Shown: positions 14,291-58,200 of the stretch, one piece after another
How the letters are laid out: every line of letters starts with the position of its first letter
How positions within the stretch are numbered: the first letter of the stretch is position 1
Assembly: GCF_965363235.1 (NCBI RefSeq)
Contig: NC_134847.1
Span: forward strand, 50,778,805 to 50,842,804
DNA: 64,000 nucleotides
From: Mytilus galloprovincialis
Taxonomy: Eukaryota; Mollusca; Bivalvia; Mytilida; Mytilidae
Reading direction: 5' to 3'
Made by a program: the position numbers and the translations under genes
The notes under the pieces: model-generated
The model's input: the letters and a program-made list of their open reading frames with translations, nothing else
Database searches by the model: none
Told to the model about the DNA's origin: nothing

Positions 14291-14930
14291 TGTTTCCCCA
14301 TTTAGATCCGAAAAGAAGGAAGATATATATATACATCTTGCAAGACATTTGCCGGAAGCCGTTGCATTTTTATATAAAGTGTGATATGGTCTATGTATGA
14401 ACTTTTGTGAGCATAATTTTCACAAACGAAATATCATATAATCTTATATTTTAAAACCTATAAATTTTGATAACTTAACATTTTCCAAAATCTAACCATA
14501 ATAACCACTATTTTTTTTTTACCAAAAAAATAGCGTTGATCGTCACAGGAACGCATATTCAGTAATATTGTAATACTTTATATATAAAGCATATCATTCA
14601 TTCGAATTTTCGTGGATATAACACTGTTTTGAAGAACACAAACACCCCTGCTAAAGTTATTATGCGTATAGTCTTTTATGTCTGACATGCATATTTTTTA
14701 CGCTTTGTCAATATGTTGTCCTTGTTTTAGACTATAGTAAAGTATGATAAAGCATTTTGCACTTTTTTTCGAAATAGTATTTACCTGTCTAGTCTATGGA
14801 TATAAGTTTTATATATCTTAACTGTTATGATTTTATAGAAAAGCTGTTTATTAGTGTGGACTTGTTGAATACATAGTATTCACGCAATAACGTGCGTAAC
14901 GTATTTGGCTTTATAAATATTTTGATATGA

Positions 14931-14974
14931 GCGTCACTGATGAGTCTTATGTAGACGAAACGCGCGTCTGGCGT
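14931..14974 (+). ncRNA. Candidate type I hammerhead ribozyme
   Basis: Parts in order: stem I 5' strand GCGTCA (14931-14936); core CTGATGA (14937-14943); stem II GTCT/AGAC with a five-base loop (14944-14956); core GAAA (14957-14960); a minimal stem III closed by A-C/G-T around GCGC; cleavage triplet GTC (14966-14968); stem I 3' strand TGGCGT (14969-14974), pairing with GCGTCA by Watson-Crick and G-U pairs. All strictly conserved hammerhead positions appear present. A short stem III is characteristic of animal retrozyme-type ribozymes. The surrounding unit is a single, truncated one. Confidence 0.72.
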
Positions 14975-15229
14975 ACTAAATTATAATCCGAGTACCTTTG
15001 ATAACTATTTGCATTGTTCTATTTTGCAGAGATTATGTCGATTATTTTATGACAGTCTTTGTTTGATAATGCGTGGATGATATGTTTTTTAATTTATAAT
15101 AGACTATGTTAAACGTTGGAAAATAATCGTTTAACATCATCTTGATATGGATTATCCAACAGTGGATAGACAGATTAAATAGAAGAAGAACAACATTTGA
15201 CGTTTCTTAAATTTATTTTGATAGATATC

Positions 15230-27590: not shown

Positions 27591-27667
27591 CCATGATAGA
27601 CTGTGAACATTTATTTACTGATGACTGAAATTTTCAGGATCATAGAAGATGAAAATAAACTGATCAA

Positions 27668-28085
27668 AGATAGATGCCAGGATTAAAATTTTATATTTAC
27701 GCCAGGCGCGCGTTTCGTCTAAAAAAGATTCATCAGAGTCGCTCGAATCAAAAAAAGTTTAAAAGGCCAAAATAAAGTACGAAGTTGAAGAGCATTGAAC
27801 ACCAAAAGTTCCAAAACGTTTTGCCAAAAACAGCTAAAGTAATCTATTCCTGAGGTAGAAAAGCCTTAGGTTTTGAAAAATCTAAAGTTTAGATAACAGT
27901 TAGTTTATAGTTATGAACATATCAATGATAACTCAAGTCAACACAGAAGTGCTGACTACTCGGCTGGTGATACCCTCGGGGAAATAAATCTCCACCAGCA
28001 GTGGCATTGACCCAGTGGTTGCAAAGAAACTCATCATAGATAGATGCCAGGATTAAAATTTTATATTTACGCCAGGCGCGCGTTG
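27668..28085 (-). mobile_element. Retrozyme-like cluster, one unit plus a truncated second
   Basis: Two copies of the block that reads 'ccaggattaaaattttatat' on the plus strand start at about 27677 and 28047, 370 bases apart. The first carries a slightly worn hammerhead (27699-27742, minus strand). The second breaks off inside it at about 28084. Between them lies the standard unit body, including 'ctcggctggtgataccctcg' and 'ccaccagcagtggcattga'. Confidence 0.72.
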
Positions 28086-30540: not shown

Positions 30541-31025
30541 ATGAATAAACTCATCATATTAACCAGAATTGAAATTTTGTATTTGCGCGACGTGCGTTTC
30601 GTTTACAAAATACTCATCAGTGACGCTCGAATAAAAAGAAATAAGTCCAAATATAGAACGAAGTTGAAGACCATTGAGGACCGAAAATTTCTAAAAGTTT
30701 TGCCAATTACAGCTAAGGTGATCTATTCCTGAGCTAGAAAAGCCTTAGTATTTCAAGAATTCAAAGTTTTGTATACAGTTAATTTATAATTATGACCATA
30801 TCAATGATAATTCATGTCAACACAGAAGTGCTCACTACTGGACTGAGAAATTAATACTACACCAGTAGTTGCATCGATAAATAAACTAACCATAGACATG
30901 ATAGATACCAGGATGGAAATTTTGTAATTGCTCCAGACGTGGGTTTCGTCTACAAAAAAGACTCATCAGTGACTTTCGAATCAAAATAATGGCAAATGAA
31001 GTACGAAGTTAAAGAGCATTGATGA
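30541..31025 (-). mobile_element. Retrozyme-like cluster, two worn units
   Basis: Two hammerhead-region copies lie at about 30582-30627 and 30930-30976 (minus strand), 350 bases apart, each followed by the unit body. Both keep CTGATGA and GAAA, but stems II and I carry changes. The 63-codon plus frame at 30541-30732 is incidental. Confidence 0.65.
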
Positions 31026-34000: not shown

Positions 34001-34694
34001 TCTGTTCAAATTGAATTATGTATAAAATAGCTGTTCATGCTTAAACTATATGTGTGTGTGTGTGTAAACAAGGTAAGGTATTGAAGTTAATAAAATTACT
34101 ATGTTTTGATTAAATGCGTTCAAATCGTTAACCAAGTTTATTTGGGGTTTTTTAAGACACTTTCCTAAAGAGACCAGATTTTAGAAGAAAATATTGATAT
34201 TCAAAACATACAAGCTACAAACTGTGTGACGAAGTAAACTCTTGGAGGCATCGAGCTTAGAATACGGAGAGGTGCGGTTGGAGGTGTCACCCCGAACTCC
34301 AGAAGAAATAAGGCATTTTTCCCAGATCCTAAAAAAATATTATTAATTCCAAATTCCTGATAACGGTCAAACCCAAATACCCGCGGAAATAAAAGCCCAA
34401 TCACGATTTCATGCAAAAAAGGCCCAAAAAGGGACTTTCTGCTGCCCCTCTATGGAAACATGTGAATAAACATCAATTGTTTTCAATGTAAGTTGTAACT
34501 TTCTGTGTAGATATTAGTATTTTGACTTCCGACAGTTACATTTTTGATGTAACGAACGCACATCGTGCCTTTTTCTAGTGATATATTTAATCTGCTAGGG
34601 TAATTTGATACTTTTATTATTGGGACATCAAGATTTCTTTGAAATGAAAATTTTCATTATTGAATGATTGAGACTATAATTTTTCTCTTTTCAG
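31026..34694. other. Gene-less spacer upstream of the receptor gene
   Basis: Contains copies of the common repeat ('tgcgactgtcatac', 'tccacaatttt', 'tttccgttttgaattttcc') at about 31110-31220 and 32310-32520, and a short (TG)n tract at 34050-34065. A non-coding 5' exon of the receptor may lie here, but I could not identify it. Confidence 0.35.
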
Positions 34695-34762
34695 ATGTTT
34701 CAATATTCTGTATCGGACAATTTTCATCATTTGATGGGAGTCGAATATCGGTCACTTTAAGC

Positions 34763-37700
34763 ATGATTAGTAAAACAGGTTTCATGATGGGCTTCATTTT
34801 AATTTTCATTACACTGTTCACGCCAACGTTGATGTATAATTATAGCAATATCATACATAATCATTTTCTAATGTGTGGCCCAGACTATATGTGTGACCAT
34901 GTCTATATGAATTACTCATACTTACCTAACAATTCATACAAAAACATAGAACTATGTCCTGAATGTTTTTGTAATTCAACATGCATAATAAATGAAAATT
35001 GTTGCCCGGATTTTTTTTTTAAAATGCCAGAACAAACTTGCATAGATTCCATAATTCTCGATTCAACCTATTATCGAGTAACTGCCATATTTCCAATGGT
35101 GACGAGTTGTCCATATGGGTCAAATGATACTGAAATTGAATTATGCGCGAGGAACCCCACAACTGTAGAACGTATGAAAACTCCTCACGTGACGTCAACC
35201 AACATACCACTAACATACCTGAATAAACACTGCGCATCATGCCATGGACATACCACGTATCACCAATGGGATTTAAATATTTCTTGTTACCTGTTTTCTG
35301 ACTACAATTTCTTATCAACCTATCAACAGGTAATAGACGAGGCGATGGAAAAGGAGTGCTTTATTATGTATCAGATAGATACTCTTCCTGTTCGAAACTG
35401 TTCTCAAAATGAAGAAATACATTTTAACAAGTGTAACATGACAGGTATGTGGGACATATTCGATCCCGATATTCAGTACGCATGTGAATCCACATATAAA
35501 CTAGTTTACAAAGTGTACAAAAACATATTTTGTTTTATTTGTAATCCTATTCGTCGCATATACACGACAGATGTTCGAACTTGTAACTCAACTGGTTCCT
35601 GGAAACCTTTTGACCAAGGGCTCCATGATGCTTGTCAATACTATAACAACCCAGACAACAGTTCGTCATTTTTAAATGTATTTTGCTACTTGTGTAATAG
35701 AGATAACACTTTTAGTAATTCCTTTGTAGATGTAAATGCTAGTATCACTTATGGACGTAAAGGTAGCGTTACCTTTTATACTTTGCAAAATATAAGTGAC
35801 TTTAGTCTGTCGTTTTATAAGCAATATTTGAATGATCAGATGAAAATTACTCCAGTAACTGTCAATGATAAAGAAAATCAGAGTTTTACGTTAAACCTTA
35901 CAAATACTTTGCTAAAGGCATATGCATATAATCCATTTCTTCCTGGATTGTGCAATGAAGAGTTGTTGCCCCTGGATGCTCTTGATGTCATCAAACCGAT
36001 TATGACCCCATGTAGTTGTAATTTGTCAGCGATTTACGAAGGAAATTTACCACTTTGTTTAGATGTGTTATTGACCAATCCATTCATGTGTATGGGCAAT
36101 GTTATAAATTTTTTTGATGACTATAAACTCGAAGAATTTATGTATGCCGTGGTAGAAAGCTGCTCTCAAAATCTTAATTCTACATTATTAAGGGAAAAAT
36201 GTACCGGAAATGGTCAAGACATTTATTCATTACTCCCGGTCGTAGATACAGTTACGAATATTCAATACAAAAATTTTCATTGCTACATCTGTAATCAAGT
36301 TACGTTTATTGATGATGTTTTTTACAATGATCATTACCTTTTTCTGTTTTACATAAATATTATCTGCGAAAATGATGTCGACATTGTATATGATCGTTAT
36401 TTGTCTATATCTGATATTATTCTAACGGCTATGTTGAATAATTGTAGAATAAGCCTCAAAAAGCAAAACGAATTACCTGTAGAATGTCACAGGGACGGAT
36501 ATAACGACATCGTTCATCAGTGCGACGTTTCCGGAATATTGACGGAGTTTGATTTCGACATTCAGTGGGCATGTGAAAATCTAACGTATGCAGTATTACC
36601 TCAGACAAAGCATAAACAGACGATATTTAAAAACGTATTTTGCTCGATTTGTAACCCTCCAAATTTTAATGAAAATATCAAATCGAAATGTAACGAAACA
36701 GGTACGTGTCAGTATTTGGCTGATAATTTAACAACTGGATGTTTTGTGTTTCCAACGGTAATCAGGGAAATTCCATATAAAAACGAATTTTGTCACGCTT
36801 GTAACGAACAACCATGCATGATGGTATTTCAAGTCAATGAAACTGAAATTGACACATATACCATTCCATGTTTTCCCCCTTTTGAACCTTATTTGTGTAA
36901 TTTTCAAGGCCCAGGATGTGTTGTTCCATGTGATATTCCGGGAGTGAAAATTCGAAACTTGTTCCAAATTGATCAGACAAAAACAAGTGATGAACCATGG
37001 GATGTTCATTACTGTTCTGATGGACAGCTGTACGACAAAAATGAAGTAAGTACATTTTATGCTTTTTAGTAAATGTTTGTTTGTTTGAAGATTGTAACAC
37101 AGTGATGACAGCTGTAACCATATTTTGACTGTTTAACGATTATGTCTGTTTTGTTCACGAATCGTTGTAAAAATAACAGAATTTGATGCTACTGTCATAC
37201 AAGTGAGAGGTTTAGCTCTGTAAAACCAGGTTCAATCCACCATTTTCTATATTTGAAAATGTCTGTACCAAGTCCGGAATATGACAGTTGTTATTCATTC
37301 GTTTAATTTGTTTTATCATTTGTTTTTGGCATTTGATTAGAGACTTTCCGTTTTTAATTTTCATCGGAGTTCAGTATTTTTGTGACTTTATTTTTTGATA
37401 ATTATATGAAAATATAAAAACAAATGTGCCTAAATTTAATTCGGGAGACGAAGTAACAAGAAACAGTTTAACCTTGATAAAGTATGTCAGACGCAATTAC
37501 ACGTATTTTTAAACTATCATCACGTACACTCGAGATAATGGTCAAACAAACACATCCAAAGCCCAATTATGGGATAGATATTATCATGGATCTTATTTCT
37601 CCTTGTTGTTTTATGATATATTTTATGGACAAAAGAGTTGCTCGTGTCATGATTACTATGCGTTGCTTGTTTTTTCTACCTTGGTCGAAGTTAAAATTGT

Positions 37701-40700
37701 GCTGTTGTCTTTAAACTCCTGACGTAAATGGTCATCATCTTAATAATATTTTACTTTTTAAAGCGCTATAATTTAAACGCTATAACATTTTGTCTAGTTT
37801 TATTCGTTTTTAGCAAATCTTTTATTTTTGTCAATTTAAGTTTACCTTTTTATAAGCTTTATAAACTACCGATGATGACTCAAATTCACCAAAGGAGAAG
37901 GTATAAAGACAGGCGGAAGATACCAAAAGGATAGTCAAACTCGAAAAACAAACTGTCATTTCTTTAACATAAAGAAAAACAAAAAAATTGACCAAAAGAC
38001 AAAATCTACAAAACGCTACATACAAAACTTAACACTGTGCAACACAAACTTATTGCGGGATCTCAGAAGGGTATTCATAATTTAGATCATGTATTTGTCC
38101 AAACATGTTGTTTCTGTAGCAGGTCTACAATTACTTTAAAAGTCATTCAAGATTATTGATTATTGTCTACTTCGTTCAAAATAAAATTGAGAATGGAAAT
38201 GGGGAATGTGTCAAAGAGACAACAACCCGACCAAATAAAAAACAACAGCAGAGGGTCACCAACAGGTCTTCAATGTAGCGAGAAATTCCCGCACCCGGAG
38301 GCGTCCTTCAGCTGGCCCCTAAACAAATATATACTAGTCCAGTGATAATGAACACCATACTAATTTCCAAATTGTACACAAGAAACTAAAATTAAAATAA
38401 TACAAGACTAACAAAGGCCAGAGGCTCCTGACTTGGGACAGGCGCAAAAATGCGGCGGGGTTAAACATGTTTGTGAGATCTCAACCCTCCCCCTATACCT
38501 CTAACCAATGTAGTAAAGTAAACGCATAACAATACGCACATTAAAATTCAGTTCAAGAGAAATCCGAGTCTGATGTCAGAAGATGTAACCAAAGAAAATA
38601 AACAAAATGACAATAATACATAATTAACAACAGACTACTAGCAGTTAACTGACATGCCAGCTCCAGACTTCAATTAAACTGACTGAAAGATTATGATTTC
38701 ATCATATGAACATCAGGCACAATCCTTCCCGTTAGGGGTTAAGTATCATACCATCATAACATATATGAGAAGAACATAACCCGTGTCATGCCAACAACTG
38801 TTTTAAAAAAAATAATGTGTTTAGTTCCGATGCAAAGACCTTATCAGTGACTCAATATTAACGCCAAAATATGCAATCTTTAATGACTTGACAACAGTAT
38901 CGTAATTATATCCCTTCTAAATAAGCCTATTCAAAGGTTTTGTAAGTTTCTGAGGTGAATACTGACACCTTTGTGCTTTATAAAGAATATTACCATAAAA
39001 AAATGGATGTGAAATACCTGAACGTATTAGAAGTCTGCATGTTGAGCTATATTTACGAATGATGTCTTTATACCGATGATAAAATTTAGTAAATGTTTTG
39101 ACTAGTTTGTGATATCGAAAACCCTGGTGTAATAATTTTTCAGTAATACATAAATTTCTCTCGTTAAAATCTAAAACATTGTAACATACACGAGCGAATC
39201 GTACAAGTTGAGAAATATAAACACCGTAAGATGGTGACAAGGGTTATGTAGTTCTATCCGTCATACGATTGTGTGTTATGCTTTTAAAAGTGAATTACAA
39301 TTTCAATATTTGTATCCGGTCCACTTTTGTAATCTTTAAACATTGGGATATATCATCTGAACATACTAAACCACTCGTTTAATGGTTTCCATAGATATAT
39401 CGTATTCTGAATTGATTACTTTTTAATTCAACTGTTTGTTTTTTTCATTTTCTTCAGAAAAACTGTCGCAACATCACGTGCTTTCCAGGAAGGCATTTCG
39501 GGCAAATCTTTTAATGGTTTCCACTCGTTTAATGGTTTCCATAGATATATCGTATTCTGAATTGATTACTTTTTAATTCAACTGTTTGTTTTTTTCATTT
39601 TCTTCAGAAAAACTGTCGCAACATCACGTGCTTTCCAGGAAGGCATATCGGGCCAATCTTTTCTTGATTCTGAATTTTGGTATTCCAACACCAAATTGTA
39701 CCATCTGTTTTATTGGATAAGTGCTGCTAAATATTTAGTTATCTTTGCAATGTCTTGTGTAGTTCTATCCGTCATACGATTGTGTGTTATGCTTTTAAAA
39801 GTGAATTACAATTTCAATATTTGTATCCGGTCCACTTTTGTAATCTTTAAACATTGGGATATATCATCTGAACATACTAAACCACTCGTTTAATGGTTTC
39901 CATAGATATATCGTATTCTGAATTGATTACTTTTTAATTCAACTGTTTGTTTTTTTTTCATTTTCTTCAGAAAAACTGTCGCAACATCACGTGCTTTCCA
40001 GGAAGGCATTTGATTGGTGGAAGTTGCGACCCTTTGTTCACAGTCACCAGGAATATAAGATACAACTTAGAGGTCTTCGTTAGAAATGCTGATTCACCAA
40101 AACAGTTTAATGGAACAGAGAAAATCATATTACGATGGTTTGAAAATATTGTTAGAAATCATTCAATTGGTACAACTAGTCTGGTTATTCTTAAAACTGA
40201 AACATTTTCAAATTTTCCATGTTCGTTAGGTCAGTCAAATCCAAACGTATTTACGTATATTGCATTTGATGTGTTCATAGAATCAAACATTTATCGGAAT
40301 GACCTTGAACAATCACTTCTGAAAATGGTTCCTGAAAACTCGGATTTTGAGAAGGACAATGATACATTTAGCATGGAAATATCTCTAGCTTCCGCATTCT
40401 CTGATCTACTCACTTTTGTTCACATGGCTAGGGAATTTAGATACGAGTCGAAATGCTGGAAATTGGAAGAAAACACCGAACTTTTAAATAAATACGGAAA
40501 TTATAAATCAACAAAAATCAATAGACAAATTGTCTGCCCACAGTTTGTTTTTGACGCCGACCAATATACAATAGATGGTTCTTCTGTTCTACTCATAAAA
40601 TACAAAATAATAATTCATTACGACATATTCTTAATAGATTCAAATAACAAAATTAGAATTTGTGTCGATGATTTCCTTTCATTCCTATTAAATAGATATA

Positions 40701-41614
40701 TCAAATCATCCACAGAATATGCTCTGGAAATAACGACAATTGTATGTACATGCGTTTCTTTATTTTGCTTGCTAGTAACTTTTATTACCTACTGCATTTT
40801 CCCGATACTGAGAACCTTACCTGGCAAAAATAATATGTGTCTCATATTGTCCCTTTTAATTGCACAGACATGTTTGCAATTTGGAACCATTTGGACTGAT
40901 CGTATACTCATCTGTAAAGCCATTGGTATCATCCTTCATGTGTTTTGGTTGTCAACATTCGCCTGCATGAACGTGTGTTCATATCATATGTATTCTGTGT
41001 TTACCACTTTCAGACCAACCAGTAGTATGTCAGAGAATAATGGACTCTTCTTAAGATATGTTTGTTATTCATACGGAACGCCTTTCATTATAGTTATCAT
41101 TAATATAGCCACTCAAATTAAGCTGTCAGGTGGAGCAAACATTGGTTATGGTGGGTCTAATTGTTTTATATCAGCTATTCCCCAAATCGCTGCGTTTATT
41201 TGTCCAGTAGGGGTCATCTGTGTGATAAATATTTGGTTATTTGGGTTCACAGCTTACACAATATACACAAGACCAATCATTCGGAGCACCGCAAACGATA
41301 AACAAGATTTTTATGTGTACTTTAAGCTTTTCTCGCTAACCGGAATCACGTGGATTGGGCAAATAGTAGACTCATTTATTCCATTATCAGTGTTTTCGTT
41401 TGTTGTCACCATACTTACAGGTTTACAAGGGTTATTCATTTTCCTTAGTTTCGTTTGTAACAAACGAGTATACAATTTGTTTTTGGGTATGTGCAAATAT
41501 AATCATAGCGAAAGTGTTCGAGAAAGTATCAGATTGTATTCACTGTATGAAGTAAATGGCCATGAAAAGTGTATTAAACGCTACCCTATTACAAAATCAT
41601 CAAAGATCTCCTAA
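34763..41614 (+). CDS. Adhesion/Methuselah-like 7TM receptor with Cys-repeat ectodomain
   Basis: Coding exons 34763-37045 and 39971-41614 (phase 0 junction: 'KNE' then 'KNCRNITC') give about 1308 residues. The upstream AG at 34694 ('tctcttttcag') suggests a preceding non-coding exon. ATG 34763 was chosen because a signal peptide follows ('MISKTGFMMGFILIFITLFT'); the first ATG after that AG (34695) is out of frame. The ectodomain repeats a module 'C..TG.W..FD.....AC' followed by 'YKN.FC..CN', for example KNIFCFICN, LNVFCYLCN, KNFHCYICN, KNVFCSICN and KNEFCHACN. It has many N-glycosylation sequons. Exon 2 adds a second extracellular region and the seven helices (about residues 1010-1260), with class B/adhesion-type motifs 'LRTLPGKNNMCL' before TM2 and 'LFSLTGITWIGQ' in TM6. 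No GPS autocleavage motif (HL-T/S) was seen. The tail is about 50 residues. The ligand is unknown. Confidence 0.87.
37189..37400 (+). repeat. Most complete copy of the common ~210-bp mussel repeat
   Basis: Runs from 'ctactgtcatacaagtgag' through 'aaccaggttcaatccacc', 'ggaatatgacagttgttatt' and 'gactttccgtttttaatttt' to 'gttcagtatttttgtgactt'. It lies in the receptor intron. It has no coding capacity and looks like a SINE or other short non-autonomous family. Shorter copies are noted elsewhere in this list. Confidence 0.65.
37905..38075 (-). mobile_element. Retroelement 3'-end fragment
   Basis: A diverged relative of 17790-17945: 'aagataccaaaaggatagtc', 'ccaaaagacaaaatc', 'cactgtgcaacac' and 'tcagaagggtatt' occur in the same order. 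It is an old fragment in the receptor intron. Confidence 0.5.
38186..39243 (-). mobile_element. Retroelement with reverse-transcriptase C-terminal region
   Basis: About 1.06 kb on the minus strand. The part at 38917-39240 encodes 'SYGVYISQLVRFARVC', 'ITEKLLHQGFRYHKLVKTF' and 'ISHPFFYGNILYKAQR', the C-terminal portion of a reverse-transcriptase polyprotein family that I have seen widely in invertebrate genomes. The remainder is its 3' region. It is 5'-truncated and fossil. Its upstream end abuts the duplicated intron segment at 39247. Confidence 0.72.
39247..40009 (+). repeat. Triplicated intron end and exon start of the 7TM exon
   Basis: The segment holding the polypyrimidine tract, the acceptor 'ttttcttcag' and the first 39 bases of the 7TM exon (KNCRNITCFPGRH) occurs three times, with exon starts at 39458, 39608 and 39971. 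The first and third copies also share about 150 bases of upstream intron ('gtagttctatccgtcatacg' at 39247 and 39759). Only the third continues into the receptor. After the shared 13 codons, copies 1 and 2 diverge and reach stops within about 7-10 codons. Confidence 0.9.
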
Positions 41615-44240: not shown

Positions 44241-45134
44241 AAAAAAAAATGCAATAACGTTTTCGACAGTGGTGCTAGAGCTAAGAATTTTTAGGAAAAA
44301 TATTAGGGAAACCAATACCAACCAAGTTACCAACTTTATTTTGACCTACCTCCAAAGATTAAGGTGACAACTTTTGCACTCAGCGGAATTGCAAACTTGT
44401 TCCGAAGTCTGTTATTCATTATAATTTTCCCCTTCCGCTAGATAACGTGATACCAAAATGCACCTATTATGAAAGTTGTTTCATTTACGTTTAGTTATGA
44501 TCCAGTTTTCATTCTGTTATTATTTTGTTTATGTGTCCTTATTGACTATACATAAAGTACTTAATATACTGATTATAAACAGACATTGTTCAATTTTATC
44601 GTATCCTAGCCTATAGTCAGTGGAAGTTTAAAGATTTAGAAAAGTGAAACTTTAATATTAAGAATTTTATTTTTCATACGCGTTTTTACAAAAAAAGACA
44701 CTTCTTATGTATTTTGATATCTATAATTGTTTTCGTATTATATTATACAGTTGTCACAGTGTTAGTGCAGTGTAAATGTGGGATCTGGCAAGATGGCCCT
44801 ATAATTCTACGTTAGACAATATGCTACAATATGCCGAATTCTTGGGAAAGCATTATTTAGGTTATGGCCTAGCGTCAGTGTGGAGACGGACTACTCGTTC
44901 CCTCTTATTCCATTAGAGGAACTTTTGTTACTTCTGTTAACAGAAGACCATCTACTTGCCAATATTACAAATGTCGGTGGTTTGTATCGTCTTGCCATAC
45001 CTCGTTTACTGTTTTTGTCCCTGCGGCCGATCTTATTACACTAAGTATTTCTTGTATTGTTTAACCTTTAATCAGAAAATAGGAGATGTGGATTGATTGC
45101 CTATGAGACAACTCAACTATACAAACAACGTGGT
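44241..45134. other. Gene-less spacer
   Basis: No exon was recognised. A SINE-like fragment ('aggagatgtggattgattgc', 'tgagacaactcaact') lies at about 45071-45130. Confidence 0.35.
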
Positions 45135-46000
45135 GTGAATAAACTCATCATAAATACCAAGATTGAAATTTAATATATGCGCCAGACGCGTGTTTCGTCT
45201 ACAAAGAACTCATCAGTGACGCTGGAATAAAAATATGTTAAAAAGGCCAAGTAAAGAAAGAAGATGATGAGCATTTGATGATAAAAAATAAATCCCTTAA
45301 AGTTTTGCCAAGTACAGCTAAGGTAATCTTTTCCTGATGTAGAAAGCCTTAGTATTTCAAAAATTCAAAGTTTTGACAACAGTTAATTTATAATCATGAA
45401 CATATCAATGATAACTCAAGACAACACAGAAGTGCTGACTACCGGGCTGGTGATACTCTCGGGGAATTAAAACTCCACCAGCAGTGGCAACGACAAAGTG
45501 GTTGTAAATAAACTCATCATAGATACCAGGATTGAAATTTAATATGTGCGCCAAACGCGCGTTTCGTCTACAAAAGAGTCATCAGTGCACTCGAATAAAA
45601 ACATGTTAAAAAGGACAAATAAAGTACGAAGATGAGGAGCATTGAAAACCACAAATTCCTAAAAGCTTTGCCAAGTACAGCTAAGGTAATCTTTTCCTGA
45701 GGTAGAAAGCCTTAGTATTTCAAAAATTAAAAGTTTTGTAAACAGTTAATTTATAATTTTGGTAATACCTTTGAGTAAAAACGATTACACCAGCAGTGGC
45801 ATCGACCCAGTGGTTGTAAATAAATTATCATAGATACCAGGATTGAAATTTTATATTTGCGCCAGACGCGCGTTTCGTCTACAAAAGACTCACGAGTTAC
45901 GGTGGAATAAAAAAAAACGTTAAAAAGACCAAATAATGTACGAAGTTCAAGAGCTTTGCGGACCAAAAATCCCTAAAAACTTTGTTAAATACAACTTAAG
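45135..46000 (-). mobile_element. Tandem retrozyme-like cluster (three units)
   Basis: Hammerhead regions lie at 45179-45222, 45548-45590 and 45861-45901 on the minus strand, with spacings of about 370 and 312 bases. Each begins with 'accaggattgaaatt' (plus-strand reading; slightly changed in the first) and is followed by the body ('gccaagtacagctaaggtaa', 'ctgaggtagaaagccttag', 'cacagaagtgctgactacc'). All three ribozyme cores carry some change relative to 46589-46632. Confidence 0.78.
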
Positions 46001-46374
46001 TAATCAACAATAGGTGACCGTACCTTACCACCATCAAAAATGAACTAAAATCCAGAACTCATGCGGCCGATTTTATTCTTGAAATATTTATATCTTTGAA
46101 TAAACGATCAAATGTTTATATCTCAACCAACCCTATTATCATAAAACGTTTCAAGAGAGAACGGAAATGAGGCATAAAAGATTTAATCCTGTCGACTCAA
46201 TGACATACGAGTTTTACTCAGTCCCTAGGAGGTCTAAAGTAGATTGTATTAACTAAATATGTGAGTTAGATTACGACGATGGATATTTTCAACGACCTTG
46301 ACTGACTATACAGCCCTTGCATGGTCGGTGTTTAGATTACAAATCCTTCTTTGCAAACTTAAATGTTAACAAGC

Positions 46375-47035
46375 ACTTTTTGGGCTGACATGAATTATCA
46401 TTGGTATTGTTAAAATTATAAATTAACTGTTTAGAAAATTCAGATTTTTTTTGAAATAATAAGGTTTTTCTACCTCAGGCATAGATTACCTTAGATGTAT
46501 TTGGCAACACTTTTAGGAATTTTGGATCTCAATGCTCTTCAACTTCGTTCTTTATTTGGGTTTTTTTAAAACTTTTTTTTGGACTCGAGCGTCACTGATG
46601 AGTCTTTTGAAGACGAAACGCGCGTCTGGCGTATATATAGAATTTAGTCCTGGTATCTATGATGAGTTTATTTACAACCACTGGGTGGATGCCACTGCTG
46701 GTGGAGATTTATATCCCCGAGGGTATCACAAGACCAGTAGTCAGCACATTTTGTGCTGACATGAATTATAATTGGTATAGTTATATTTATAAATTAACTG
46801 TTTACAAAATTTTGAATTGTTTGAAATACTAAGGCTTTTCTACCTCAGGCATAGATTACCTTAGCTGTATTTGGCAACACCTTTAGGAATTTGGGATCTC
46901 AATGCTCTTCAACTTCGTTCTTTATTTGGGTTTTTTTTTTACTTTTTTGGACTTGAGCGTCACTGATGAGTCTTTTGTAGACGAACAGTGCGTCTGGCGT
47001 ATATATAGAATTTAGTCCTTGTATCTATTTTATTA
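46375..47035 (+). mobile_element. Tandem retrozyme-like cluster (partial unit plus full unit)
   Basis: The same family as 45135-46000, in the opposite orientation. The predicted cleavage positions 46626 and 46994 are 368 bases apart, defining one full monomer. A partial unit precedes it and a tail of about 35 bases follows. The body contains 'gcatagattaccttagctgt', 'tctcaatgctcttcaacttc' and 'atctatgatgagtttattta'. Confidence 0.8.
46589..46632 (+). ncRNA. Candidate type I hammerhead ribozyme (best copy)
   Basis: GCGTCA (46589-46594) pairs with TGGCGT (46627-46632) as stem I. CTGATGA is at 46595-46601, stem II GTCT/AGAC at 46602-46614 and GAAA at 46615-46618. The cleavage triplet GTC ends at 46626. 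Stem III is only the A-U and C-G pairs around GCGC, so the single motif may be weak and the dimer may be the active form, as is known for short-stem-III hammerheads. The second unit's ribozyme (46957-47000) has a damaged GAAA box. Confidence 0.75.
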
Positions 47036-48580: not shown

Positions 48581-48832
48581 AATTTCACTTATTGCCACAA
48601 GTTTAACCCTGCCTTTATATATTGTTTTCAGATGTCTTTCAGCAAACATTATTTCTTACAAAGCAAGCAAGCCAACTAAACAATTAACTTGCTAGCTTTA
48701 TGATAAGAGCTGTAAAATTAATATTATCATTGGTTTGTTTGATTGTTGATATTACAATTCACTCACACAGTTTTATTACTATTATTATTCTCTAAAATAA
48801 ACAAGCTGAAGATTAATAGCTTTAGATGTTGA

Positions 48833-49105
48833 CAATAAACTCATCATAGATACCAGGATTACAACTTTATACACAAAACACACGTTCAAAAGACTCGGTC
48901 ATCAGAAAAGTTAAAAGGTAAAATAAAGTATGAAGTTGATTATCGTTGAGGACCAAATTTCCACAAGAATTTGCCACATACAGCTAATGTAATGTTTTCA
49001 TTGGGTAAAAAATCCTTAGTTTTGTAAGCAGTTAACTAATAATTATGATCATATCAATAATAATTCATGTCAACACAGAAGTACTTACTACTGGGGTCAA
49101 AGTGT
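48833..49105 (-). mobile_element. Decayed retrozyme-like unit
   Basis: 'aactcatcatagataccagg', a worn hammerhead region, 'gccacatacagctaatgtaa' and 'tcaacacagaagtacttact' follow in family order. The ribozyme core is no longer recognisable. SINE-like fragments follow at about 49266-49345 and 49885-49945. Confidence 0.6.
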
Positions 49106-51904: not shown

Positions 51905-52235
51905 TGCCCTCAAATATACTATGACGTCATGGGAAATTGAATAACCCTTACATGTCTGATAGATATTGGTCCTCCAAAATACTATGACCTCATTACTATG
52001 ACCTCATAGGAAATTGAATAACCCTGACATGCCTTATAGTAATTGGTCCTCATAAATACTATGAACTCATGGGAAATTGATTAACCCTGACATTCCTGAT
52101 AGTAATTGGTCCTCAAAAATACTATGACCTTACGGAAAATTGAATAACCCTGACATGCCTGTTAGTGAATGGTCATCAAAAATACTATGACCTCACTGGA
52201 AGTTGAATAACCCTGACAAGTCTGATAAAGATCTT
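51905..52235. repeat. Tandem repeat of ~62 bp, five units
   Basis: The unit contains 'aaatactatgacctca', 'gggaaattgaataaccctga' and 'catgcctgatagtaattggtcctc'-like sequence. 'actatga' recurs at about 51919, 51982, 51996 (a short internal repeat), 52058, 52121 and 52184. It lies 55-385 bases beyond the POLQ stop codon and is probably within the 3' untranslated region. Confidence 0.8.
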
Positions 52236-52288
52236 TTCTTATAATTTTTGACAGAGACAATGGCAGTACTTTCTGTTCCACTACTTGT

Positions 52289-55200
52289 TTACAAATTTAT
52301 TTCCTCAAGCTTTCCCCAACTAGGTCCTGCCTTAACTTTAACTGGCAGACGGACAGACAGCTTCATGGCATTTTCCATCTCACTTTGTATAATCTGTGCC
52401 ACAGGTATCATATCATCTTGACAAACCTCGTAAATCAGTTCATCATGTAGCTGTAGGACAAGGTAGCCACCAGATAATTTCATTGTTGTGGATTTACTTC
52501 TGCTTCTAACATTGCGTCTTTCTACAACAAGAGTGCACACGCTGAAATGTCTCGCCTTCTATACTAATCATTGATATTATGTTGATAGTCCTAAGTAAAA
52601 AGCTAAGCTTTATAACAACTGTACCATAAACTTAACATTAACCAAGATAACTAAACAAAGACCAATGAACCTTGAAAATGAGGTCAAGGTCAGATGAACC
52701 ATGCCAGGCAGACATGTACAGCTAACAATGCTTCTATACAACATATATAGTTGACCTATTACTTATAGTTTAAGAAAAATAGACCAAAACACAAAAACTT
52801 AACACTGTGCAATGAACCGTGAAAATGAGGTATCGGTCAAATAAAACCTGCGCGACTGACATAAAGATCATTAAATATTTCCATACACCAAATATAGTTG
52901 ACCTATGGCATATAGTATTAGATAAAAAGACCAAAACTCAAAAACTTAACTTTGACCACTGAACCATGAAAATGAGGTCAAGGTCACATGACATCTGCCC
53001 GCTAGACATGTACACCTTACAATCATTCCATACAACAAATATAGTAGACCTATTGCATATAGTATGAGAACAACAGACCAAAACACAAAAACTTAACTAT
53101 AACCACTGAACCATGAAAATGAGGTCAAGGTCAGATGACACCTGCCAGTTGGACATGTACACCTTACAGTCCTTCCATACACCGAATATACTAGCCCTAT
53201 TGCTTATAGTATCTGAGATATGGACTTGACCACCAAAACTTAACCTTGTTCACTGATCCATGAAATAAGGTCGAGGTCAAGTGAAAACTGTCTGACAGAC
53301 ATTAGGACCTTGCAAGGTACGCACATATCAAATATAGTTATCCTATTACTTATAATAAGAGAGAATTCAACATTACAAAAAATTTGAACTTTTTTTTCAA
53401 GTGTTCACTGAACCATGAACATGAGGTCAAGGACATTGGACATGTGACTGACGGAAACTTCGTAACATGAGGCATCTATATACAAAGTATGAAGCATCCA
53501 GGTCTTCCACCTTCTAAAATATAAAGCTTTTAAGAAGTTAGCTAACGCCGCCGCCGTAGCCGCCGCCGGATCACTATCCCTATGTCGAGCTTTCTGCAAC
53601 AAAAGTTGCAGGCTCGACAAAAAATAATAATGAGTAGCTGTAAATTCAGAAATGTTTGCATGTATGTATAGTTGAAATTGTTGAAAAACCGACAAAAATG
53701 CAAGATTGATCATTATGATTTCTGTAAAGGCTACATACAAAAATGATAAGAGTTTTTTATTTTGAGATACCAATTCCATCAAAATTTTTTGCAGTAATGA
53801 AAACATTACAAAAATTTCTAACTTTACAGTACTAGGAGAAAACAATAGTTTTAATATTTTCAGTGCTAATTTTTCTACATTTCAAAGCTATATTGTCTAA
53901 AGTATGAAGATTCCCAGACTGACCACTTCAAAAGTGCATTTAACAAGAATGTGTCCGAAGTACATGGATGCCCACTCGCACTATCATTTTCTATGTTCAG
54001 TGGACAGTGAAATTGGGGTAAAAACTGTAATTTGGCATATAAATAAGAAAGATCATATCACAGGGAACATGTGTACTAAGTTTCAAGTTGATTGGACTTC
54101 AACTTCATCAAAAACTACCTTGACCAAAAACTTTAACCTGAAACAGGATGAATGAACGGACGGACGAAGGGATGGATGAACAGACGGACGAACTGATCCA
54201 CAGACCAGAAAACATAATGTCCCTCTACTATTGTAGGTGGGGCATAAAAATTTGTCTGTTTGCTAGAACATTTAAAACATAAACTGTTATCACAGAATTA
54301 TGTCTCGCCTTTTTGTAATTTTGATTATGCAAAGGTTGAAATCAAAATAGCAATACTTACACAATCTTACACAATTAAGTTATGCAAACATTCAAAGTCA
54401 ATGAACAATGACTGAGTTACATGGCTAAACAATCTCCATGTAAATGAGATGTGCCAATACTAATACAACTGCATACCAAATACCACTGACGTTATTATAA
54501 GCCGTTCCCAAACCTAAATACAAACATTAACTTGTAAACTATATAAAAGTTTCAAAGTCAATGAACCATGAAGAGGGGGTGGGGCTATATAATCTCCATG
54601 GAAACAATACTTGCAAATGACAATAAATTTGCATACCAAATAACATTGACTTAACATTAGCAGTTCATCTTAAACAGATCTAATCACAAACTAATATGTG
54701 TAAACTAAGATAAGTTTCAAAGTCATTAGACTGTGACTGAGGGGCAAGGCCAAATATTCTCCATGAAAATGAGATGTGCCGATGCTTATACAACTGAATA
54801 CCAATTGACATTGGCCTACCACTAATGGTTCCCCTTGTACTGACCTAATCAAAAACTAATACATGACAACTTAGAAAAATTTCAAAGTCAATAGACCATG
54901 ACTAAGGGGGCAGTGCCAAATTATCTCCATGGAAATGAGATATGCCAATGCTTATACAACTGCATACCAAATATCATTGACCTACCACTCGTGGTTCCCC
55001 ATAAACTGACCTAATCACAAACTAATGCATGTATATAAGCAAAAGTTTCAAAGTCAATGGACCATGACTGAGAGGGCAGGTTCAAATAATCTCCATGGAA
55101 ATGAGATGTGCCAATGCTTTTATCCTGATTTAGAGTAATTTCTCGCAATTTGATTGGCTTATATTGTCCTAATAAATTTCAGTACATTTTTTTTATTACG

Positions 55201-58200
55201 TCAATACGAATTATCTCCCTTATTTATTACGTAAATTGGAATTATCTCCTAAACCATTGACCTAATAAAAAATTAAAACAAGAATGTGTCCAAAGTACAC
55301 GGATGCCCCACTCAATCATTTTCCATGCTCCATGGACCGTTAAATAGGGTAAAAATCTAATTTGGCATTAAAATTAGAAAGATCATATCATAGGGCACAT
55401 GTATACTAAGTTTCAAGTTGATTGGACTTCAACTTCATCAAAAGGTTCCTTGACCAAAAACTTTAACCTGAAGCCAAAAACTTTAACCTGAAATTTGCAC
55501 TATCATTTTCTATGTTCAGTGAACCGTAAAATTGGGGTCAAAACTCTAATTTGGCATTTAAATTAGAAAGATCATATCATAGGGCACATGTATACTAAGT
55601 TTCAAGTTGATTGGACTTCAACTTCATCAAAAACTACCTTGACCAAAAACTTTAACCTGAAATTTGCACTATCATTTTCTATGTTCAGTGAACCGTAAAA
55701 TTGGGGTCAAAACTCTAATTTGGCATTTAAATTAGAAAGATCATATCATAGGGCACATGTATACTAAGTTTCAAGTTGATTGGACTTCAACTTCATCAAA
55801 AACTACCTTGACCAAAAACTTTAACCTGAAATTTGCACTATCATTTTCTATGTTCAGTGAACCGTAAAATTGGGGTCAAAACTCTAATTTGGCATTTAAA
55901 TTAGAAAGATCATATCATAGGGCACATGTATACTAAGTTTATAGTTGATTGGACTTCAACTTCATCAAAAACTACCTTGACCAAAAACTTTAACCTGAAG
56001 CCAAAAACTTTAACCTGAAATTTGCACTATCATTTTCTATGTTCAGTGAACCGTAAAATTGGGGTCAAAACTCTAATTTGGCATTTAAATTAGAAAGATC
56101 ATATCATAGGGCACATGTATACTAAGTTTCAAGTTGATTGGACTTCAACTTCATCAAAAACTACCTTGACCAAAAACTTTAACCTGAAGCCAAAAACTTT
56201 AACCTGAAATTTGCACTATCATTTTCTATGTTCAGTGAACCGTAAAATTGGGGTCAAAACTCTAATTTGGCATTTAAATTAGAAAGATCATATCATAGGG
56301 CACATGTATACTAAGTTTCAAGTTGATTGGACTTCAACTTCATCAAAAACTACCTCGACCAAAAACTTTAACCTGAAGCCAAAAACTTTAACCTGAAATT
56401 TGCACTATCATTTTCTATGTTCAGTGAACCGTAAAATTGGGGTCAAAACTCTAATTTGGCATTTAAATTAGAAAGATCATATCATAGGGCACATGTATAC
56501 TAAGTTTCAAGTTGATTGGACTTCAACTTCATCAAAAACTACCTTGACCAAAAACTTTAACCTGAAATTTGCACTATCATTTTCTATGTTCAGTGAACCG
56601 TAAAATTGGGGTCAAAACTCTAATTTGGCATTTAAATTAGAAAGATCATATCATAGGGCACATGTATACTAAGTTTCAAGTTGATTGGACTTCAACTTCA
56701 TCAAAAACTACCTCGACCAAAAACTTTAACCTGAAGCGGGACAGACGGACGAACGGACGAACGAACGGACGAACGAACGGACGAACGAACGGACGCACAG
56801 ACCAGAAAACATAATGCCCCTCTACTATCGTAGGTGGGGCATAAAAAAAGATCTGCTTTATAGTTCTAATATTTTAAATTTTTAACAGGTTTAGATTAAA
56901 TATCTTAAATATATTTGGTTGATTATTGTACAAATATTGAATTTGAATATAACAATATGTAATATAACAAAATCAGGATAAATTCGTTACACAGTGTTCA
57001 ATTGTCCTAATACGGAATTTATCGGGTAATAAAATTCATATCGGGTTTGGCTTCGCCTCATCCGATATGAATTTTATTGACCCGATAAATTCTTGTATTA
57101 GGACGATTGCACACTGTGTAACTAATAATACAACTGCATACCAAATATGACTGACTGGCCACTTGTGGTGTACCATAAACTAGACTAAATCACAAACTAA
57201 TACATTGTTGATGCGGTCGCCACCGACGCCGGAAACAGCATACCTATGTCTTGCTTTTTGACTCCGTCAAGGCGAGACAAAAAATCTTTCAATTTGACAT
57301 GAACTTGAAAACTCTTTTTAAGTTTAATGTAAAAAAACACAAACAAAAACAAACAAACAAAAGTTGAAAATACTGTAAAATTCCTGTCATCCTGTTACTT
57401 TATCAAAAACTATTGCATAATAATTTGTAAATCAAACCACAAGTGATATGGATTTACTTGTAATTTTCTTGGTTATCCAGTGACTTATTCATAGGGATGC
57501 TCAATAACTGCTGTAGGTCAAGTAAAATTACAACAGCAGAGAACAGTGCAATAAAGATGTTTCAAAAGAATTCTATTGATTTTTTATTTCCAATAGGTTG
57601 GAATTAATCAAAATTTGAGTTTTTGGTAAAATGCATTAAGTTGTGGTGACCAATATTTGTTGTTTTTCCATTTGTTTTTTCGTCTATCATTATAATTGAT
57701 TAAAACTTTATCAAACGGACAACATTTCAATATAAGTAAATCTCTCTGCTTCCTCCATGAATGTGAACAAAACAACAACAGTTGTTTATTTGTACCTAAA
57801 CTGGGGCTTACTAATAATACTGTTCATTATCAGTTTATAAACAATTTTTTTTTTATAAAAATATACCAAGTCAGTAACCTAATGATCAGTAGTTGTTGTA
57901 TGTTGATGTGGTAAATAAATGTTGTTTTTTTTTATATAGATTAGACTGTAAGTTTTCCTGTTTGAATGAATATGTTTTACACTAGTCATTTTTTGGGTCC
58001 TTTAAAGCTTGGTGTTCAGTGTGATCCAAGGCTCCGTGCTGAAGACCATGCTCTGACCTATAATGATTTACTTTTACAAATTGAGACTTGGATAGAGAGT
58101 TGTCTCATTCTACATCTTCTTATATCTAAGGATGTCAATTTTGCAAGAAAAAAATCTTGCATGCTCACAATAAAAGAAAACACATAAAATCAGTATGTGC

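Follow-up and report, generated by a model that had tools for sequence, protein, structure and literature searches.

Most sampled copies of the retrozyme of the mussel Mytilus galloprovincialis, in all three families that we distinguished, share one fixed 3′ end, which lies 33–46 nt past the cleavage site of the hammerhead ribozyme that they carry. We consider it probable that the circular form of the retrozyme is reverse-transcribed from a fixed internal start near a hairpin, most likely by a Penelope-like reverse transcriptase.

A hammerhead repeat in the window

The repeat was met in a 64,000-nucleotide stretch of contig NC_134847.1 (positions 50,778,805 to 50,842,804), hereafter the window, whose numbering is used below unless a contig is named. 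At 46589–46632 on the plus strand, CTGATGA, a GTCT/AGAC stem, GAAA, GTC and a GCGTCA/TGGCGT pairing follow one another in the order of a type I hammerhead, as a preliminary description of the letters had read them. The Rfam hammerhead model RF00163 matched exactly this interval (32.5 bits, E 1.4e-5, below the gathering score of 34); the core is intact, and the cut is predicted between 46626 and 46627. Recurrence of the motif one unit later, at 368 bp, had also been proposed. The spacing stands (46595 to 46963), but the second core, in a hammerhead at 46957–47000 (+), is damaged by sequence, with GAAC in place of GAAA.

Both hammerheads lie in a family B retrozyme insertion that alignment places at 46372 to ~47035 on the plus strand and that comprises ~1.8 units of 368 bp. 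Its 5′ end is unit position 148 and its 3′ end is at or near the fixed site shared by other copies: the alignment stops at 47028 and is followed by TTTATT, which by eye fits the fixed site after a small deletion. The homologue of that site within the array, and putative start of reverse transcription, is at 46673 (+; between 46672 and 46673), 46 nt past the cut, and is internal because the array continues there. Directly 3′ of it, at 46680–46738 (+), lies a conserved irregular hairpin, a candidate recognition element for reverse transcriptase.

The window holds seven separate insertions, three on the plus and four on the minus strand, in agreement with the earlier claim of several copies in both orientations. 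On the plus strand, the other two are a 5′-truncated family A copy of 110 bp (14904–15013; intact hammerhead at 14931–14974, 33.0 bits) and an old fragment that ends near the fixed site (11–205; 72% identity, degraded hammerhead at 124–168). The minus-strand insertions comprise ~2.4 units by alignment at 45130–46005, ~1.2 units by alignment at 27650–28084, ~1.3 units at 30544–31022, and an old fragment at 48828–49094 that has 67% identity and ends near the fixed site. The places that had been listed as further copies of the motif are uneven. At 14931 the motif is intact, and the hammerhead at 45179–45222 scores 27.7 bits; those at 27699–27743 (GCC at the cut, stem II broken), 30583–30627 (broken stems), 45548–45592 and 45859–45903 (both degraded) are recognizable, yet carry damage to the core, the cleavage triplet or the stems. 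The repeat also aligns near 30930, but no hammerhead was found at that place. Most copies in the window show decay, and of the two tandem hammerheads only one retains an intact core. A twin-primed origin of the facing minus and plus arrays found no support, as 366 bp of other sequence lie between them and their divergence differs.

A default-threshold Rfam scan of the whole window gave zero matches. At relaxed thresholds hammerheads appear; snoRNA, miRNA and riboswitch matches that came up in the same scan were far under their cutoffs and were discarded. Hammerhead scores at nine further loci ranged from 25.8 to 33.0 bits. A common mussel form scores 33.0 bits (window 14931–14974; loci L009, L010, L014 and L032), 1 bit below the gathering score, so default Rfam annotation overlooks it. 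When six hammerhead 44-mers from the window were folded in isolation, the active hammerhead was not the minimum-energy fold and folding energies stayed within those of shuffles (z −0.71 to +1.02); one 368-nt unit likewise folded no better than shuffles.

The window has other features. An open frame at 39947–41614 carries a secretin-family 7-transmembrane domain (PF00002), and upstream on the same strand an 801-aa frame without a Pfam match lies at 34664–37069; the two are perhaps one receptor gene. Upstream of the receptor frame, a 150-bp unit is duplicated in tandem with 98% matches (39371–39662), and several tandem arrays, whose periods are 63, 77, 147, 166 and 189 bp, are clustered at 51917–56795.

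An abundant retrozyme with a maintained ribozyme

Across the genome (1.385 Gb, 331 contigs), the pattern CTGATGAGTCTN{3,20}AGACGAAA, with the GTCT/AGAC stem II core, has 24,347 exact matches, and its reversed control has 0. The abundance of the motif is not due to chance, with the core counts representing related copies rather than independent events. A second version of stem II, GACA/TGTC, defines family C and has 6,834 genome matches. Mixed versions, which cannot pair, number 7 and 4 (with 1 reversed-control match for the latter). Because both pairing versions are abundant and the mixed ones are so few, the stem II helix is kept.

Alignment of individual hammerheads points the same way. Among 37 of 81 hammerheads (1 of 32 with the exact core and 36 of the 49 others), 90.0% of pair cells were standard compared with 85.6% in shuffles, a share raised by the omission from those 49 of 13 that were shifted or more damaged. 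Nineteen cells had changed on both sides, compared with 4.6 in shuffles. These compensatory changes come mostly from family C, and by eye locus L016 has a separate change in stem III. Two of the five measures taken on the 37 hammerheads, pairs with a double change (5 vs 3.5) and pair types (16 vs 15.0), did not exceed shuffles. Variation that ignores the predicted pairs had been named beforehand as evidence against a ribozyme; in both the 37 hammerheads and the stem II counts, the pairs are on the whole respected.

Tandem units are mostly spaced at 342–368 bp, within the 150–450 bp of metazoan non-LTR retrozymes, which form dimers to multimers. Arrays here hold anything from a fraction of one unit to several, and are longer in family C. 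Each unit has a type I hammerhead, often degraded in older units. In one unit from each of the three families, GC content was 0.36–0.38, under the 50% limit of metazoan non-LTR retrozymes, and the longest ATG frame on the circle 36–72 aa. No LTR arrangement was seen in 40 fetched loci. The longest regular array noted, of family C, contains at least 44 units, all of one strand and spaced at exactly 350 bp, across 15 kb (C1:433314–448387), and its 3′ end, in L010, is the same fixed site. Shorter units than usual also occur, as hammerhead-bearing retrozyme pieces spaced at 145 bp (L016, 1963–2503; C1:5616417 and 5616562). One retrozyme locus with an identical 3′ flank is present three times, ~6.2 kb apart (L035, L036 and L037; C1, ~2395, 2402 and 2408 kb), as part of a larger duplication.

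The sequence evidence supports identification of the repeat as a metazoan non-LTR retrozyme, as first proposed from the window: it has a type I hammerhead with minimal stem III, tandem units of 350–370 bp, copies in the tens of thousands and ends like those left by retrotransposition. It is not the anonymous repeat that it had been taken for, as the mussel retrozyme has been published. Cervera and de la Peña (2020; PMC7229834) described in M. galloprovincialis ~5000 type I hammerheads, in repeats of 350–390 bp that fall into two similar families, with in vitro self-cleavage at a kobs of ~0.1 per min and abundant circular RNA on northern blots. Judged by their description of its type and size, the present repeat is very probably that element, with which it shares the type I hammerhead, tandem 350–390 bp organization, low GC, lack of coding capacity and copies in the thousands. 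Compared with that account, we count 24,347 plus 6,834 exact cores and at least three families, and we add the insertion ends and the start hairpin, which we did not find described there.

The LTR retrozymes of plants are also non-autonomous and form hammerhead-processed circular RNA; they differ in having type III hammerheads, LTRs, a tRNA primer site and a polypurine tract (PMC7229834; PMC7761336). Satellite 2 of newts, with ~330 bp repeats bearing a type I hammerhead, resembles the mussel element by its description (PMC7229834). In the titles and abstracts searched, which cover the literature incompletely, we found no report of fixed retrozyme ends or of a start hairpin. The element itself is already known; as far as searched, the grammar of its insertion and its conserved start hairpin go beyond what is in print.

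Most sampled copies end at one fixed site

Insertion ends were examined in 40 loci of ~5 kb each, drawn from the first 100 of the 24,347 places, all on a single contig and with the exact core required, and in 20 additional 3′ ends from the same 100-place list. Aligned to the unit, most arrays in the 40 loci share one end point and start anywhere. Anchored extension from the cut, in these loci, the 20 further 3′ ends and the window, covered 65 cores, of which 49 were terminal. Forty-one of the 49 terminal copies stop 39–55 nt past the cut, three of the 49 rows being the single duplicated locus L035–L037. By family, 30 of 35 terminal copies end at 39–46 nt in family A and 11 of 14 at 46–55 nt in family B; in family C, three distinct insertions end by eye at the homologous place, ~33 nt past the cut. 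The remaining 8 of the 49 stop before the fixed site, 3 of them, by eye, after small indels in the tail. The seven insertions in the window end at +34 (after a small deletion), +45, +46, +46, +50, +52 and +55.

Copies found through their tail behave similarly. Fifteen of 20 end within 6 nt of the fixed site, 4 run on and 1 is unclear; these were hand-picked from 100 listed, with fetched loci and close pairs omitted, so that run-on is under-sampled among them. A 21-base tail has 10,653 copies in the genome, and the tail plus the next nine unit bases 2,641; assuming a loss of ~3% per base, as observed on stepping across the cut, roughly two thirds of tails would end at the site. The 5′ ends of sampled copies, by comparison with this fixed end, are variable, and arrays cross unit boundaries. 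Four of the 20 tail-found copies (L111, L115, L126 and L129) are very short insertions with 5′ ends at +11 to +15.

Metazoan retrozymes are described as having target duplications longer than 4 bp "when present" (PMC7229834), a wording under which their lack does not disqualify a repeat. Here, target duplications were not above mispaired controls, either in 37 copies (of more than 80% identity and ending near the site) or in a separate test of 63 copies. By eye, L111 has TGTAGT on both sides, a possible single target duplication. The first flank base is T in 71% of cases (background 35%) and the next two are A or T in 90% and 86% (n = 49), a bias confounded by the unit's own continuation as TTA. 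Across the first 12 bases of the flank, A+T stands at 0.69 compared with 0.70 further out, and is thus no richer than background. That an AT-rich target is not borne out over 12 nt counts slightly against the main explanation and the hairpin reading, and slightly in favor of mobilization by a LINE.

A circle as the probable template

The cleavage site itself leaves little mark on insertion ends. A pattern stepped across the cut matched 6,317 times when 2 bases short of it, 5,966 times at it and 5,581 times when 2 bases beyond, losses per 2-nt step of 5.6% and then 6.5%. From these losses, copies that start at the cut are in excess by ~1% at most. A pile-up of 5′ ends at the cut, suggested by L034, L044, L045 and L114 (≤4 nt), was therefore dropped, as the genome-wide counts do not support it. 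A linear, ribozyme-cut monomer as template would yield only inserts of 33–46 nt that start at the cut. Units of the same array resembled one another more closely than the average for other arrays in all 13 arrays compared, and more closely than the best other array in 11 of the 13; this covered arrays longer than 416 bp and above 78% query identity, with only two comparisons per family B array. Copies that cross the cut and the likeness of units within arrays agree with rolling copying of a circle; an uncut multimer with near-identical units could also give both.

The template might instead be an uncut multimeric transcript, with hammerhead cleavage having no role in mobilization. We regard this as rather unlikely. 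In the Penelope-like element of Anolis, catalytic mutants leave in vitro insertion unchanged, and its authors regard RNA that has not been processed as the chief substrate (PMC11167929); that 5′ ends show no marked pile-up at the cut fits an uncut template equally. Weighing against it, compensatory change has preserved the hammerhead from one family to another, units of one array are closer to each other than to other copies, and published circular RNA in mussels exceeds linear RNA, the linear form being below 5%, or 10–25% in other specimens (PMC7229834).

A circular template also bears on which machinery is involved. A fixed 3′ end with 5′ truncation, as the retrozyme has, is the usual pattern of SINEs and LINEs, and a LINE of the L1, CR1 or RTE kind could mobilize the retrozyme if the fixed 3′ end were a tail that the LINE recognizes, as in SINEs. 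We hold this to be rather improbable. Target duplications were not above chance in the 37 copies; a circle has no 3′ end, so initiation at an end in the manner of LINEs would require a second cut; and arrays of more than one unit require a circular or multimeric template. Our preferred reading remains an internal start on the circle.

A conserved hairpin beside the putative start site

In a comparison of single units from families A, B and C, the best-conserved 78-column window began at +40, with 79% identity compared with a median of 55%, the width having been picked with the fixed site in mind. In each of the three units this block folded into a similar irregular hairpin, just 3′ of the fixed site. 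Tested on 27 copies (27 of 28 sequences aligned) with a 23-pair structure derived from the family C fold, 92.8% of cells were standard compared with 89.5% in shuffles, and 17 cells had changed on both sides compared with 4.9, mostly at two distal pairs. Three pairs had changed on both sides compared with 2.6, and neither this number nor that of pair types exceeded shuffles. Unforced RNAalifold recovered part of the hairpin, 15 pairs only. The position and conservation of the hairpin suggest that it is a recognition element for reverse transcriptase.

The same block contains GGGTCGATGCC, a box-B-like stretch in which 10 of 11 columns reach 90% conservation or more across 27 copies; in the window it takes the form GGGTGGATGCC and lies inside the start hairpin at 46683–46693 (+). 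GGGTCGATGCC has 8 of the 9 fixed letters of the polymerase III box B, and is a possible promoter part. The +40 block might then be conserved as an internal promoter for RNA polymerase III instead of as a recognition hairpin. That reading is quite doubtful, in spite of the conserved columns: T-runs, which are expected to stop polymerase III, occur later in the unit, the compensatory changes fall outside the box, and the fixed insertion end coincides with the 5′ border of the block. The two roles may also coexist.

Another reading, that unequal exchange has spread the repeat as a simple satellite whose decayed ribozyme has no present role, we find very hard to credit. The 44 family C units at exact 350 bp spacing (C1:433314–448387) and the decay of many copies would suit it. 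Against it stand the thousands of copies, many of which comprise a partial unit or just a few units, and which share a single fixed 3′ end and differ in their 5′ ends.

Penelope-like elements as candidate partners

Animal retrozyme repeats are described in a review as lacking a conserved motif that points to an autonomous partner (PMC7761336). Penelope-like elements have been proposed as strong candidates on the grounds of co-occurrence, shared hammerheads and tandem copies (PMC7229834). With a purified Anolis Penelope-like protein, reverse transcription starts internally, downstream of the hammerhead, at an AC-rich stem loop and on AT-rich DNA (Frangieh et al., 2024; PMC11167929). The retrozyme unit is not itself a Penelope-like element, which would encode reverse transcriptase with GIY-YIG, as it has no frame longer than 72 aa.

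At least 147 GIY-YIG matches were found in the mussel genome when 150 of 1,001 candidates were scored; locus L057 has GIY-YIG together with a reverse transcriptase (RVT_1, slightly under cutoff), and L049 has GIY-YIG. L049 also contains the Penelope-type hammerhead motif CTGATGACGGTGCCC..GGCACCGAAAC, which occurs 103 times in the genome. This assignment is a reading of the motif, as Rfam, run on 15 of the 22 stretches fetched at GIY-YIG matches, listed no hammerhead in them. Repeats of the Penelope type are regularly arranged, with 20 of 21 same-strand neighbors 1,058–1,078 bp apart, and these units are perhaps non-autonomous derivatives of a Penelope-like element. Tandem and head-to-head units of this type also occur at C3:22205144–22207315 (L084) and C9:76617694–76622373.

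Ends of the Penelope-type repeats were followed in 19 copies, which are single stretches (plus L084) from 100 listed places. By eye, 11 of the 19 run on; the other 8 stop, each 0–7 nt from a single site that lies ~57 nt beyond the cut. Among the 100 listed places, neighbors of the Penelope type were head-to-head ("−+") in 18 cases and "+−" in none. Head-to-head copies would result from extension of both target strands; retrozymes are seldom so arranged, with 1 "−+" and 2 "+−" among 100 listed of 24,347 places.

By analogy, the retrozyme as read here agrees with Penelope-like elements in its manner of starting. With Poseidon of Anolis it shares a hammerhead upstream of a fixed internal start of reverse transcription at a stem loop, and tandem or partial-tandem copies (PMC11167929). 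The start lies 33–46 nt past the cut in the retrozyme, compared with 85–92 nt in Anolis as calculated from the published positions (PMC11167929). The retrozyme differs from Penelope-like elements in being non-coding, in having few head-to-head pairs and in having no sequence in common with the stretches fetched here. Compared with 12 Penelope-type loci it gave matches only at E 0.2 and above; compared with 10 further ones, it gave one retrozyme insertion (L065) and otherwise E ≥0.69 among the matches listed. The scarcity of head-to-head pairs, the lack of common sequence in these stretches and a target not established as AT-rich weigh against machinery shared with the Penelope-type repeats.

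Discussion

The pathway that we favor runs as follows. Transcripts of genomic arrays would cut themselves at the hammerhead, as we infer here and as has been published for M. galloprovincialis (PMC7229834), and the monomers would be closed into circles. Target-primed reverse transcription would start inside the circle at one fixed point, 33–46 nt beyond the ligated cleavage site, with the conserved hairpin immediately on its 3′ side. The enzyme, most likely of the Penelope-like kind, would copy across the ligated junction, often for more than one round of the circle, and halt anywhere. With a fixed start and a variable stop, new insertions would have a fixed 3′ end and a variable 5′ end; with more than one round of copying, longer insertions would be tandem units from one template. 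A fixed internal start would explain why copies are tandem, 5′-truncated and out of phase with the ribozyme.

More tentatively, the ~60-nt hairpin could be the missing mobilization signal of animal retrozymes, which a Penelope-like reverse transcriptase would recognize on the circle, starting internally. We put this forward as a real possibility rather than as the expected outcome. The fixed start site and the hairpin that follows it offer a candidate motif by which the partner might be revealed, and they make the question of the partner testable. If the proposal is true, the hammerhead, by making circles, would turn an enzyme that starts internally into a rolling copier that retains the site it recognizes, and retrozymes would be trans-mobilized parasites of Penelope-like elements.
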